Shown here: positions 2,638 through 42,317 of the stretch, piece by piece
How the letters are laid out: each line of letters starts with the position of its first letter
Position numbering within the stretch: position 1 is the first letter of the stretch
Assembly: GCA_024763365.1 (NCBI GenBank)
Contig: JANTFO010000005.1
Location: forward strand, 1 to 47,912
Origin: Flavobacteriaceae bacterium
GTDB taxonomy: Bacteria; Bacteroidota; Bacteroidia; Flavobacteriales; Flavobacteriaceae
Length of the DNA stretch: 47,912 bases
Direction of reading: 5' to 3'
Position numbers and translations under genes: made by a program
Notes under the pieces: model-generated
Seen by the model: the letters and a program-made list of their open reading frames with translations, nothing else
The model's database searches: none
Told to the model about the DNA's origin: nothing

Positions 2638-3690
2638 TCAAGGCAGATGAATCACACCTGATGAATGATTTTTTATGGCTTTGGTTACAGAGGATAAACA
2701 ATTTACTTCATTCTGTAATTTTAATAAACCCAGTAATGCAAAAATTAAGGCTTCTTTGTATTCAATTAATGTTTGATTAGGAATGGTGATAAATGAATTG
2801 GATGATGCTTTTATCCTTTGTATTAAAAAGTGATTGTAAGCACCACCACCCGTGATTAAAACATTTTTTTTAGCCTTTAAGTTTTCTGAAATTTTTTGTG
2901 CAATATGCTCTGTATAGGTGCGTAACACATCTGATATTTTTATATTGTAAGAATCAATAAGTGGGATTATTTGCTCAGTAACTTGCTCATAGCCCATAGA
3001 ATTGTTTGAATTGTAAAAACTCAATTTAGCCAAGGCTTGTAGTAATGCACTGCTTATCTTTCCTGTTTTGGCTATGCTTCCTTTGTCATCATATTCGAGA
3101 TTCATTTTTCTCGCATAATGATTTAATACTATATTTGATGGGCAAATATCATAAGCTATTCTTTCATTGTTATTCTCATATGAGATGTTGGAGAAGCCAC
3201 CAATATTTAAACAATAATCAAAATTAGCAAATAAATATCTATCACCGATAGGTACTAAGGGTGCCCCTTGTCCCCCTAAAGCTACATCTTGCGTTCGGAA
3301 GTTGTTGATTACTTTAGTGTTTGTAATCTTTGCGATGCTTTTACCATCACCTATTTGCAGGGTATAACCTTCGGATGGTTTGTGAAAGATTGTGTGTCCG
3401 TGTGAGGCGATAAAGTCTAAATTCTTAATAGCATATTTATTATTAAATGCCAATACTTTCTCACCTATATATTTCCCGTATTTTACAGTTAACTTTTGAA
3501 TTTCATCTGAATTTGAATGAAAGGCACTTAGCAATTTTTGTCGCCAATCTTTTGGGTAAGGGACTGTTTCAGCATATATTATTTTGTATGTGAAACTTTC
3601 TTTATAACTTAACCTGACATAAGCCATATCTAATCCGTCTAATGACGTTCCACTCATGACTCCAATAATATGCCAAGTTCCTTTTTTCAA
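2638..3690 (-). CDS. anmK: Anhydro-N-acetylmuramic acid kinase (TTG start)
   Basis: AnmK hydrolyses and phosphorylates 1,6-anhydro-MurNAc, giving MurNAc-6-phosphate during recycling of peptidoglycan. The 350-residue product starts with the family's ATP-binding signature GVMSGTSLDG at residues 10-19; further blocks are ASHGHT (~residue 91), GGQGAPLVPIGD and ITGGGAYN near the C-terminus, typical of the hexokinase/actin-like ATPase fold. The start is TTG at 3690: an in-frame TAA lies 7-9 nt upstream and the next ATG (residue 12) lies inside the essential signature. The gene is divergent from rpsU, with 123 bp between the starts. The short C-terminus (usual ~360-370) is not alarming. Confidence 0.9.
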   Translation of the reverse strand: MKKGTWHIIGVMSGTSLDGLDMAYVRLSYKESFTYKIIYAETVPYPKDWRQKLLSAFHSNSDEIQKLTVKYGKYIGEKVLAFNNKYAIKNLDFIASHGHTIFHKPSEGYTLQIGDGKSIAKITNTKVINNFRTQDVALGGQGAPLVPIGDRYLFANFDYCLNIGGFSNISYENNNERIAYDICPSNIVLNHYARKMNLEYDDKGSIAKTGKISSALLQALAKLSFYNSNNSMGYEQVTEQIIPLIDSYNIKISDVLRTYTEHIAQKISENLKAKKNVLITGGGAYNHFLIQRIKASSNSFITIPNQTLIEYKEALIFALLGLLKLQNEVNCLSSVTKAIKNHSSGVIHLP

Positions 3691-3707
3691 TAAAAATTAA
3701 TAAAATA

Positions 3708-3715
3708 CAAAGGTA
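3708..3715 (-). promoter_or_regulatory. Putative -7 promoter element of anmK
   Basis: Minus strand TACCTTTG, an exact fit to TAnnTTTG, 17 bp upstream of the TTG start. This would give a very short leader. No clear -33 TTG is visible. Confidence 0.45.
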
Positions 3716-3740
3716 CATTTATATTTATAGTTTAAATATA

Positions 3741-3770
3741 TTGTCAATCCAAAGATTAATATTAATTTTG
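3741..3770 (+). promoter_or_regulatory. Promoter of rpsU (Bacteroidota sigma-A type)
   Basis: TTG at 3741-3743, a 19-nt spacer, then TAATTTTG at 3763-3770. This fits TTG-N17-23-TAnnTTTG. Transcription should start near 3776-3778, leaving a leader of roughly 36-38 nt that contains the Shine-Dalgarno sequence. Confidence 0.65.
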
Positions 3771-3796
3771 CAGCTTAATTAAAACAAGATTACATG

Positions 3797-3806
3797 AAAG
3801 GAGGTG
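3797..3806 (+). promoter_or_regulatory. Unusually strong Shine-Dalgarno of rpsU
   Basis: AAAGGAGGTG is complementary over ten bases to the usual 3' end of bacterial 16S rRNA; GGAGG ends 9 nt before ATG 3814. Other starts in this window (tuf, rplK, rplL, rpoC, aceE, gltA) have only A/T-rich sequence there. In Bacteroidota the anti-SD is normally occluded by bS21 and neighbouring proteins, so an SD on the bS21 gene itself fits autoregulation. The ATG at 3794, just before the SD, opens an eight-codon frame ending at TAA 3818-3820. Confidence 0.9.
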
Positions 3807-3813
3807 CTTATAT

Positions 3814-4011
3814 ATGTTAATCATTCCAGTTAAGGATGGAGAGAATATAGACAGAGCTTTAAAAAGATATAAGAGAAAATTCGACCGTACCAAAACGATG
3901 AAAAAATTGCGAACAAACAAGCAATTTACAAAACCCTCTATATTAAAAAGAGATCAAAAGATCAAAGCTACTTATCTTCAAAGAAGACGTACAGCAGAAG
4001 AGCAAGCTTAG
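3814..4011 (+). CDS. rpsU: 30S ribosomal protein bS21
   Basis: The 65-residue, strongly basic protein begins MLIIPVKDGENIDRALKRYK, the bS21 N-terminal pattern, and continues with RKFDRTKTMKKLR and FTKPSILKRDQKIKA. bS21 binds the 30S platform beside the 16S rRNA 3' end. In Bacteroidota ribosomes it helps hide the anti-Shine-Dalgarno. Length is normal for Bacteroidota bS21. The gene has its own promoter, a strong SD and a terminator, so it is a single-gene unit upstream of xerC. The C-terminal ~10 residues (RRRTAEEQA) are variable in the family. Confidence 0.95.
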   Translation: MLIIPVKDGENIDRALKRYKRKFDRTKTMKKLRTNKQFTKPSILKRDQKIKATYLQRRRTAEEQA

Positions 4012-4033
4012 ATTTTTATTTACAACTGATTAG

Positions 4034-4081
4034 AATTAGAAGTGCTTTAAAGTTTTTAACTTTGTACTTCTAATTTTTTTT
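4034..4081 (+). terminator. Rho-independent terminator of rpsU abutting the xerC start codon
   Basis: AATTAGAAGT at 4034-4043 pairs perfectly with ACTTCTAATT at 4066-4075. An inner AAAGTT/AACTTT stem lies within the loop. A run of eight T follows (4074-4081), and the xerC ATG begins at 4082 with no gap. Confidence 0.8.
4057..4064 (+). promoter_or_regulatory. Possible -7 element of xerC inside the rpsU terminator
   Basis: TAACTTTG fits TAnnTTTG exactly and ends 17 nt before the xerC ATG, so it would give a leader of about 11 nt. It lies in the inner stem of the terminator hairpin. There is no good -33 TTG. Confidence 0.35.
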
Positions 4082-4972
4082 ATGATTGATAAATTTTTGA
4101 CATATTTAGATTTAGAAAAGTCTTACTCAAAGCATACTTTAAAGGCCTATCAGAATGATATTCAGTCGTTTAAAGATTTTCTTGAAAATAATTTTGCGAT
4201 TGAAAATTTTATAGAAGTTAGTTATCATGAAATCCGTACATGGATTATACAATTATCTGATAGTGGACTTTCAAATAAAAGTATCAACAGGAAAATAAGT
4301 TCGCTAAGATCATTTTATAAATTTTTGGAAAAGATAGAATTTGTGCAAAACAATCCACTGCAACAACACAAATCATTAAAAGTTCCCAAAAAGTTGGTTT
4401 TGCCATTTTCTAAGCATGAAATGCAAAAACTTAAAGATCAATTTGATACGTTGGAAGACTTTGATAGTTTAAGAGATTTTTTATTGATAGAGATGCTTTA
4501 TACGACCGGAATGCGTAGAGCAGAATTAATTAACCTCAAGTGGACAGACATATCATTTAGTAATCAAAATATTAGGGTATTAGGTAAAAGAAATAAAGAA
4601 AGGCTAATACCTTTATTAAGTGCCACTGCAGCACTACTAAAAAAATATAGAATATACTGGGAGGAGATAGCAGATGATACATCGTTTGTTTTCATTACTG
4701 CCAAAGGAAAACAGATTTACGAATCCCTAGTTTATATAATTGTTAGAAATTACATTTCTCAAGTTACGACCAAAAGTAAGAAAAGTCCCCATGTATTGAG
4801 GCATTCATTTGCTACACATCTACTTGATGAAGGAGCCGACCTCAATGCCGTTAAAGATTTGTTGGGTCATGCAAGTTTAGCTTCAACTCAAATCTATACG
4901 CAAACTAGTTTAGAGTATCTCAAAAAAGTTTATAAAAAATCTCACCCTAGAAATAATTTTAATAAAAAATAA
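4082..4972 (+). CDS. xerC: Tyrosine recombinase XerC/XerD
   Basis: A site-specific recombinase that, with a partner, resolves chromosome dimers at dif. The 296-residue protein has a SAM-like N-terminal core-binding domain (residues ~1-90) and a C-terminal catalytic domain. The catalytic set is complete: R145 in TTGMRRAEL, K169 in GKRNKER, H237 and R240 in HVLRH, H263 in LGHASL, and the nucleophile Y272 in TQIYTQ. Length matches Xer proteins (~295-300), and its place between ribosomal genes, away from any phage gene, supports a housekeeping role. I call it XerC because it lies apart from any second recombinase and such genes beside rpsU/hpf are usually labelled XerC in this phylum; XerD is possible. 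The start codon follows directly after the rpsU terminator. Confidence 0.85.
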   Translation: MIDKFLTYLDLEKSYSKHTLKAYQNDIQSFKDFLENNFAIENFIEVSYHEIRTWIIQLSDSGLSNKSINRKISSLRSFYKFLEKIEFVQNNPLQQHKSLKVPKKLVLPFSKHEMQKLKDQFDTLEDFDSLRDFLLIEMLYTTGMRRAELINLKWTDISFSNQNIRVLGKRNKERLIPLLSATAALLKKYRIYWEEIADDTSFVFITAKGKQIYESLVYIIVRNYISQVTTKSKKSPHVLRHSFATHLLDEGADLNAVKDLLGHASLASTQIYTQTSLEYLKKVYKKSHPRNNFNKK

Positions 4973-35109: not shown

Positions 35110-36075
35110 ATGAGTAAAAAAGTAAATAGTATAGCTATTGCCAGAAGAACCTTAATTGCCGAAAGCAAAGCGATTGCTGCATTGGAACAATATTTAACGG
35201 AAGATTTTAACGATGTAGTTGAGACTATTTATCAGTCCAAGGGACGCTTGATTATTACTGGTATTGGTAAAAGTGCCAACATCGCTACAAAGATAGTGGC
35301 CACTTTTAATTCTACAGGTACACCGGCTGTTTTTATGCATGCTGCCGATGCCATTCATGGAGACTTGGGTACTATTTTACAGGACGATATCGTACTTTGC
35401 TTATCTAAAAGTGGTAATACACCGGAGATAAAAGTATTGATACCTTTAATAAAGAATTCCGGAAATAAGATTATTGCCCTCTGTGGAAATCCAGAATCTT
35501 ACTTGGTTGCTCAATCAGATTTTTATATTAATTCTTATGTCAAAGAAGAGGCCTGTCCTAACAATTTGGCACCTACCACCAGTACTACAGCACAGTTAGT
35601 TCTAGGGGATGCTTTGGCTATTAGTTTATTAGAGAAAAGAGGCTTTAATGCCAAAGATTTTGCCAAGTATCACCCAGGAGGTTCATTGGGAAAGAGATTA
35701 TATTTACGCGTGAGAGATTTGATGATCAAGAATCAAAAACCTTTGGTTAAACAGACAGATTATATCAAGGATGTAATACTTGAAATCTCCTCTAAAAGGT
35801 TGGGAACCACTGCTGTGACAGATGGTAAATCTATTGTAGGTATTATTACAGATGGTGATTTACGTCGTATGTTAGAATCATATAAAAATATTGAAAGTTT
35901 AACAGCCAAAGATATTATGAGTAGTAATCCTAAGACTATTGTGGAGGATGCATTGGCTGTAGATGCTTTAGATAATATGCGTCATCATAATATTACACAA
36001 TTATTGGTTGTTTCAGGTGATGATTATTTAGGGGTAATACATTTGCATGATTTGTTAAATGAAGGGATTTACTAA
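35110..36075 (+). CDS. kdsD: KpsF/KdsD-type arabinose-5-phosphate isomerase
   Basis: Converts ribulose-5-phosphate to arabinose-5-phosphate, the first step to Kdo for lipopolysaccharide. The 321-residue protein has an N-terminal SIS sugar-isomerase domain (GIGKSANIATKIVATFNSTG at ~54-73; LSKSGNTPEI) and the AGDALAI-type CBS linker, then two CBS domains (residues ~205-320, DLMIKNQKPLV and TAKDIMSSNPKTI). Length and domain order match KdsD/KpsF (~325). It is followed after 3 bp by tatC, so the two are an operon, although the functions are separate. Confidence 0.93.
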   Translation: MSKKVNSIAIARRTLIAESKAIAALEQYLTEDFNDVVETIYQSKGRLIITGIGKSANIATKIVATFNSTGTPAVFMHAADAIHGDLGTILQDDIVLCLSKSGNTPEIKVLIPLIKNSGNKIIALCGNPESYLVAQSDFYINSYVKEEACPNNLAPTTSTTAQLVLGDALAISLLEKRGFNAKDFAKYHPGGSLGKRLYLRVRDLMIKNQKPLVKQTDYIKDVILEISSKRLGTTAVTDGKSIVGIITDGDLRRMLESYKNIESLTAKDIMSSNPKTIVEDALAVDALDNMRHHNITQLLVVSGDDYLGVIHLHDLLNEGIY

Positions 36076-36078
36076 AAG

Positions 36079-41369: not shown

Positions 41370-42317
41370 TTAATTTAGTGTGATGCGTGAACCAAAGCTA
41401 CGATCTTCCAATTTTCGTGCTTCAGTAATGACTGATTTTTTACCTCCATTTTCTACAAAGTTGAGGGCTGCTTTTATTTTTGGAAGCATACTTCCCTCAC
41501 CAAAATCACCTTTTTCAATATGTTTTTCAATTTTCTCTTTGTTTAGGAATTCTAATATTTCTTGTTGTGGTGTTCCATAATTGGCATACACATAAGGGAC
41601 ATCTGTAAGAATATAAAAGTCATCAGCATTTATTTGGGTCGCTAATAAAGAAGAGGCAGCATCTTTATCAATGACGGCCTCCATAGATTGTAATAACCCA
41701 TTTTCATCATAATAAACTGGAATACCTCCACCTCCTGCAGCAATGACTATAACACCCGAGTTGACAATGTTTTTTATTATGTTGGTGTTAAGTATTTCTA
41801 GAGGTTTTGGCGAAGGTACCACACGTCTCCACCCATCAATGGTTTTTGAGGATTTTTTGAATTCCCAACCTTTTCTTTTTTCCAATTGTTCAGCTTGTTC
41901 TTTTTTGTAAATCTTACCGACTCTTTTGGTAGGGTTTTTATAAGCCGGGTCATCTTTAGATACGACAACTTGCGTAACTATGGTCATAACATCCTTTTGA
42001 ATACCTTCTTCTTTCAGGATATTGATTAGCATTTTTTCCAGCATGTAACCTATACCTCCCTGGGAGTCGGCTACACAAATATCAAGTGGCATTTGAGGAA
42101 TATCGTATTGTGATTCTCCGGCATCATTTCTCATAAGAATATTACCAACCTGTGGGCCATTCCCATGAGTGATGACTAGATTGTATCCATCTTTTATAAG
42201 ATAGATTAAATTACGTATCGTAGCACTGGAATTGGCATATTGTTGTTCAATAGTACCTCGTTCATCTCCCCTGATGATGGCATTACCTCCAAGTGCTATC
42301 ACTGCTAGTTTGCTCAT
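41370..42317 (-). CDS. arcC: Carbamate kinase
   Basis: Transfers phosphate from carbamoyl phosphate to ADP, making ATP and carbamate. The 315-residue protein has the amino-acid-kinase fold: ALGGNAI at the N-terminus (residues ~8-14), the VITHGNGPQVGN nucleotide/phosphate loop, PMPLDICVADSQGGIGYML and VIAAGGGGIPVYY. Length is normal (~310). It is 30 bp upstream of the OTC gene and 109 bp after the NTPase, all on the minus strand, so the three are likely one operon. Together with OTC it would allow substrate-level ATP formation from citrulline. Confidence 0.94.
   Translation of the reverse strand: MSKLAVIALGGNAIIRGDERGTIEQQYANSSATIRNLIYLIKDGYNLVITHGNGPQVGNILMRNDAGESQYDIPQMPLDICVADSQGGIGYMLEKMLINILKEEGIQKDVMTIVTQVVVSKDDPAYKNPTKRVGKIYKKEQAEQLEKRKGWEFKKSSKTIDGWRRVVPSPKPLEILNTNIIKNIVNSGVIVIAAGGGGIPVYYDENGLLQSMEAVIDKDAASSLLATQINADDFYILTDVPYVYANYGTPQQEILEFLNKEKIEKHIEKGDFGEGSMLPKIKAALNFVENGGKKSVITEARKLEDRSFGSRITLN

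Follow-up and report, generated by a model that had tools for sequence, protein, structure and literature searches.

The rpsU gene of the flavobacterium studied here is preceded by an extended Shine–Dalgarno (SD) sequence that is very probably used mainly by 30S subunits lacking bS21, the ribosomal protein that rpsU encodes. The bS21 feedback loop is itself already known, and this organism is one more carrier of it; that the same loop would operate here we infer by homology, from the same SD, a bS21 that keeps Tyr54 and a bS18 gene. Two observations are additions, as they were not found in the literature searched: a mini-ORF that overlaps the rpsU SD and start codon, and the pattern of SDs among bS21 paralogs. 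Below, ‘the window’ refers to the whole 47,912-nucleotide stretch of DNA that was analysed.

The bS21 feedback loop and the rpsU leader

In the proposed loop, the 16S tail of complete ribosomes would be held by bS21, bS18 and bS6, which is why ordinary genes would manage without SDs; a shortage of bS21 would yield subunits with a free 16S tail, these would form 11 bp with the rpsU leader, and the bS21 made from that leader would close the loop. That exposure of the anti-SD in bS21-free ribosomes leads to rpsU translation is the model of Jha et al., as relayed by McNutt et al. (2023; PMC9976891), and experiments in Flavobacterium johnsoniae have demonstrated both that the tail is sequestered and that rpsU responds when bS21 is lost (PMC9976891). 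Specifically, bS21 truncation, Y54A substitution or depletion raises output from an rpsU′-gfp reporter 3- to more than 4-fold, SD-less reporters show little or no change on bS21 loss, a tuf reporter given a strong SD also rises on bS21 truncation, mutation or depletion, and bS21-free ribosomes initiate faster on rpsU mRNA (PMC9976891). The first-pass annotation, in proposing that ribosomes lacking bS21 expose the anti-SD and translate rpsU, had in effect arrived at this published loop, and that proposal is supported. For the window organism, the reading draws on the SD, its strength, its standing among the examined gene starts, its conservation, Tyr54 and the bS18 gene.

The extended SD, GAAAGGAGGTG (3796–3806, forward strand), forms 11 contiguous Watson–Crick pairs with the family 16S tail GGAACACCUCCUUUCUA (−19.9 kcal/mol, RNAduplex), and the part of it noted at first, AAAGGAGGTG (3797–3806), ends 7 nt ahead of the rpsU ATG at 3814, a spacing that the coordinates bear out. 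The tail was taken from the genomes of relatives, no 16S gene having been found in the organism's own assembly; all 13 family genomes with a 16S match read AACACCTCCTTTCTA, under a search pattern that itself favours the canonical tail. At −19.9 kcal/mol the leader lies well beyond the −13 kcal/mol pairing criterion of Bacteroidota bS21 autoregulation, where our energies are from RNAduplex with the family tail and those of McNutt et al. (2023; PMC9976891) from a different program. Folded alone, the window leader forms a hairpin, which we dropped as a conserved element, as conservation could not be argued from one folded sequence.

The gene itself (3814–4011, forward strand) encodes a bS21 of 65 amino acids with Tyr54 kept (Pfam PF01165, 8.3e-15) and is the only bS21 match in the assembly, in which a bS18 gene is also present. 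Upstream, TAATTTTG (3763–3770, forward strand) matches TAnnTTTG, the consensus of the Bacteroidota −7 promoter box; it is the sole such match in 3601–3813, and 43 nt separate it from the rpsU ATG. The same motif occurs within −80 to −1 in 55 of 80 named rpsU loci (the best 80 of 557) as against 9 of 80 when the sequences are reversed. Behind the gene lies a likely intrinsic terminator (4027–4082, forward strand), a long hairpin whose 3′ arm ends in eight T (fold of 4012–4085, −18.5 kcal/mol), which suggests a single-gene transcript; the F. johnsoniae rpsU is transcribed alone (PMC9976891). The best match of the window bS21 in the PDB is 7jil chain z (6.5e-21), which is the F. johnsoniae ribosome according to McNutt et al. 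(2023; PMC9976891).

The rpsU leader stands apart from the other gene starts in the window. In the 25 nt upstream of the starts of the 34 other ORFs taken as genes, pairing ranges from +0.8 to −9.1 kcal/mol, and the six genes that had been described as SD-less (names assigned by eye from translations) all fall between +0.8 and −2.1: tuf −2.0, rplK 0.0, rplL +0.8, rpoC −2.1, aceE 0.0 and gltA +0.7. The description of the window as otherwise SD-free is borne out at the gene starts examined. The second-best pairing among them is that of the tatC ORF (36079), with −9.1 kcal/mol at 36049–36078. Beyond gene starts, GAAAGGAGGTG occurs only once in the window, both strands counted; among 20,000 random window 25-mers, 146 reach −13 kcal/mol and four reach −19.9, and a scan of 25-mers with GAGG-like strings gave just two sites that attain −19, one in the rpsU leader and the other on the minus strand near 41711–41742. 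The latter pairs with the anti-SD at −20.0 kcal/mol and lies inside an ORF (41370–42317), away from its start.

Across the assembly (2.02 Mb, 84% complete) the pattern AAGGAGGT-N3-12-ATG has 18 matches, two of which share one SD, as against 8 for a reversed-pattern control; through each of the 17 matches other than rpsU runs an open frame of 243 or more codons, and rpsU alone is a match at a gene start, in a search that covered one SD spelling and ATG starts within this 84% of the genome. Among the 17, L152 has a stronger pairing than rpsU (−23.2 kcal/mol) but lies antisense within a 686-codon frame, with a 17-aa ORF behind it. A looser pattern, GGAGG-N4-12-ATG, was uninformative (345 matches, 260 in the control). 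Many equally strong SDs at other genes of the genome would have spoken against the first-pass annotation; as far as this was checked, in the 34 window ORFs and by one assembly pattern, none was seen at another gene start.

Two simpler accounts of the SD need to be weighed against feedback. Chance might be invoked, given that the AAGGAGGT pattern has 18 matches in the assembly and its reversal 8, and that a stretch within another window ORF pairs equally well; yet only the rpsU match sits at a gene start, and the SD is kept at −17.0 kcal/mol or better in all 80 named rpsU loci (the best 80 of 557 confirmed candidates), so that on the assembly pattern, the window scan and the gene-start evidence we reject a chance origin as extremely improbable. 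Somewhat less remote, though still quite improbable, is a strong constitutive ribosome-binding site devoid of feedback, of the kind that might be expected in front of a small gene expressed at a high level. This account sits badly with the SD-less starts of tuf, rplL and other genes expected to be highly expressed, and with the rise in output from the F. johnsoniae rpsU leader when bS21 is lost (PMC9976891). Preferential use of the SD by bS21-free subunits remains the reading that we favour.

Conservation of the SD and the copies of bS21

According to McNutt et al. (2023; PMC9976891), who surveyed the spread of the loop across Bacteroidota, rpsU is usually the sole strong SD gene in Flavobacteriales, and about 80% of that order satisfy their two criteria. 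Among the matches listed, the best named relatives of the window bS21, with identities of up to 83%, come from Lutibacter and further genera of Flavobacteriaceae. A bS21 match was present in 58 of the 60 genomes searched (the organism's own included), and a copy with an SD at −13 kcal/mol or better occurred in all five other genus members with a bS21 match, in 28 of 30 other family genomes, and in three of 22 genomes with a bS21 match from other families of the order, where most of the 22 lacked a tail read and were paired with the tail of the family. In such a comparison of rpsU leaders, which the first-pass annotation had proposed, the SD is retained in most of the family, but 19 of the 22 relatives outside the family are without it, so that the loop does not extend to every member of the order. 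Order relatives without a strong rpsU SD include G037, G043, G044, G046 and G048, though a CCTCC-type tail is encoded in some of these relatives outside the family (G043, G054). One member of the genus (G004), given as 96% complete, has no bS21 match.

Copy number adds a further layer. Among 199 family genomes, two or three bS21 matches were found in 83, one in 115 and none in one, where the multi-copy class counts matches at E up to 0.001 and includes a genome (G033) whose second match is below the curated cut-off. A pattern of GGAGG plus the rpsU start matches in 178 of the 199: exactly once in 79 of the 83 multi-copy genomes, and in 99 of the 115 single-copy ones. By this pattern, no genome among the 199 has two SD-bearing bS21 copies. 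Some of the misses are false (e.g. G029, with GGGGG), because the pattern demands GGAGG; the multi-copy, SD-copy and single-copy counts were read by eye from tables and recounted. Two SD-bearing copies were seen in one genome alone, that of another genus member (G003), and the second was set aside: this divergent 84-aa bS21 (L106; PF01165, 3.5e-7) comes from a contig of 3.4 kb, where its neighbours by eye resemble signal peptidase, HisRS and a HIT protein, and is probably contamination.

The main group of SD-less bS21 genes in Flavobacteriaceae is a supported clade of 11 (100/99; L021, L065, L072, L077, L083–L085, L089, L091, L093 and L099, in genomes G011–G035), all of which are second copies except L021, the sole match in G028. 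In L242, a copy of this group has a sigma-70 gene on one side and DUF2797 and GH3 genes on the other, and several others are placed alike by eye. Three further paralogs (L095, L101, L104) carry His instead of Tyr54. No Bacteroidota appear where McNutt et al. (2023; PMC9976891) list the taxa that have additional bS21 copies. The SD-less paralogs raise the question of whether bS21 is also supplied outside the feedback. bS21 genes occur on viral contigs as well: of the 22 such loci from IMG/VR, 21 (L258–L278) lack an SD (best −2.5 kcal/mol, using the flavobacterial tail), and the other locus (L257), which may be host DNA, has TGAGATGT, the complement seen in a family with an altered tail.

A mini-ORF across the SD and the rpsU start

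The rpsU SD lies inside a predicted mini-ORF (3794–3820, forward strand), eight codons (ATG AAA GGA GGT GCT TAT ATA TGT) and a TAA stop encoding MKGGAYIC, which lies in another frame than rpsU and covers the start codon of that gene; the mini-ORF's own ATG (3794–3796) begins at position −20. An upstream ATG alone is unremarkable, because six of 34 window ORFs, rpsU included, have one lying within, or just over the edge of, the 30 nt before the start; the argument is one of conservation. The tatC ORF also has an ATG at −20, situated in the end of the preceding ORF. Similar mini-ORFs occur in the nearer relatives of the window organism, among them Lutibacter, Polaribacter and Tenacibaculum. The triplet at −20 to −18 in the 107 unique SD leaders (of 117, with L106 left out throughout) is ATG in 45, TTG in 17, GTG in 4, CTG in none and something else in 41, and in all 66 NTG leaders the frame stays open until a stop at codon 9, a length that follows partly from rpsU beginning with ATGTTA or ATGCTA. 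The second codon of the mini-ORF is AAA in 37, AAG in 20, AGA in five and GAA in four, each of them compatible with SD wobble pairing. Across 397 family genomes, a search for non-ATG forms at −20 gave ten TTG, one GTG and no CTG. In a wider sample of 56 leaders (length-matched, picked by eye among the matches listed, those already counted excluded) NTG is found in ten (eight ATG and two TTG, one of the ten with an in-frame stop), AAG in 45 and ACG in one.

Base by base, we compared 83 unique leaders (of 84) that share a fixed SD spacing and were chosen irrespective of −19, one (L105) having been dropped as too short; leader totals differ between the counts given here, as these did not use the same string for removing duplicates or the same definition of spacing. 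Position −19 is T in 72 and A in 11, never C or G, with five changes on a tree built from rpsU and the DNA that follows it; position −20 is A in 58, T in 21 and G in four, never C, with eight changes; and positions −25 to −21 show all four bases and 20–27 changes on the same tree. An A at −19 is able to pair with a U of the 16S tail, and a T is not. One genome with a mini-ORF-type leader (G031) encodes the usual 16S tail.

The promoter motif also differs between leader types. Among the 80 named loci (the best of 557 candidates) it lies 40–56 nt from the start in 32 of 63 NTG loci versus seven of 17 others, and 24–39 nt from the start in none of the 63 versus ten of the 17; it is thus farther out in NTG loci, which would leave room for loading at −20. 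In F. johnsoniae, AUG triplets are under-represented between −21 and −1, and the same is true of the region ahead of start codons in Bacteroidetes (PMC6847099). The main text of McNutt et al. (2023; PMC9976891) contains no terms for a uORF, an out-of-frame frame, a decoy or reinitiation, and a full-text search, with most subscription journals outside its scope, returned no paper on an rpsU upstream open reading frame in Bacteroidota.

What holds this frame in place can be read in two ways. In one, bS21-complete, SD-blind ribosomes would start at the NTG at −20, translate the eight codons and, in passing over the rpsU AUG, block it, whereas bS21-free ribosomes would be placed there by the SD; in a softer form, ribosomes finishing the mini-ORF would start again at the rpsU AUG, which lies shortly before the mini-ORF stop. 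We think such a switch unlikely, and doubtful to the same degree that the NTG is a decoy start in the Lutibacter–Polaribacter–Tenacibaculum part of the family, serving two ribosome populations with starts 20 nt apart; the case for a decoy used by SD-blind ribosomes is suggestive, not proven. It draws on the prevalence of NTG with CTG absent, the frame open to codon 9 in every NTG leader, the restriction of −19 to T or A and the want of C at −20 with few changes relative to −25 to −21, the TTG and GTG forms among the family genomes, the avoidance of AUG upstream of starts in F. johnsoniae and Bacteroidetes (PMC6847099), and the more distant promoter motif of NTG loci; a start codon would be a simple reason for a T at −19 after A, T or G. 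Against it, the pattern is bound to a lineage, NTG being infrequent and once stopped in frame in the wider sample, and the leader set represents that lineage and not a random sample; within a clade of 74 leaders, to which most of the T leaders belong, four have A and no NTG, the absence of C among eight changes at −20 is weak evidence by itself, conservation of the peptide is not required given that all codon 2 variants fit the SD, and a mispairing C at −7 is conserved as well.

That C, present in 68 of the 83 leaders, leads to the other reading, in which the sole role of the bases at −19 and −7 is to fix the register and the end of an SD helix about 11 bp long, and the mini-ORF is a by-product; we give this an even chance. 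Leaders with A at −19 for the most part have no TG behind GGAGG: in the wider sample TT follows it in 42 of the 46 leaders with AAG (45) or ACG (one), and three A leaders within the T clade lack GGTG, so that a one-base shift would preserve helix length. A ban on pairing alone, though, would admit C or G at −19, where neither occurs in the 83 leaders and a single C in the 56. Since the helix is displaced by one base in most leaders with A at −19, the register rule explains part of the pattern.

Relation to known systems

In the classic autoregulation of ribosomal proteins in E. coli, the free protein binds its own mRNA. The bS21 loop is alike in that the level of a protein feeds back on its own translation, and differs in that the absence of the protein alters the ribosome itself. 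The closest known system is that of F. johnsoniae (PMC9976891), with which the window organism shares an extended SD of about −20 kcal/mol that stands out among gene starts, a bS21 with Tyr54, an apparently single-gene transcript and, as read in 13 genomes of its family, a canonical anti-SD; the window leader differs from that system in its NTG at −20 and the overlapping eight-codon frame, and its promoter-to-ATG distance is longer than in many relatives. Lineages with an alternative anti-SD, Chryseobacterium and its relatives (core 5′-UCUCA-3′; PMC9976891), are similar in that the rpsU leader complements the tail. Here this is seen in two genomes of another family (G040, G053), two of the three with an SD copy outside the window organism's family, which have an altered 16S tail, ACAUCUCAUUUU, and a leader with the matching 12-nt complement; they differ from the window organism in that other tail and in a His at position 54. 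Such covariation of leader and tail is credited to Jha et al. in the Introduction of McNutt et al. (2023; PMC9976891).

The bS21 loop is a clear case of a bacterial specialised ribosome, in which the absence of one protein changes the choice of mRNA. If the NTG at −20 works as a start, two forms of the ribosome would moreover compete for two start codons on one message.
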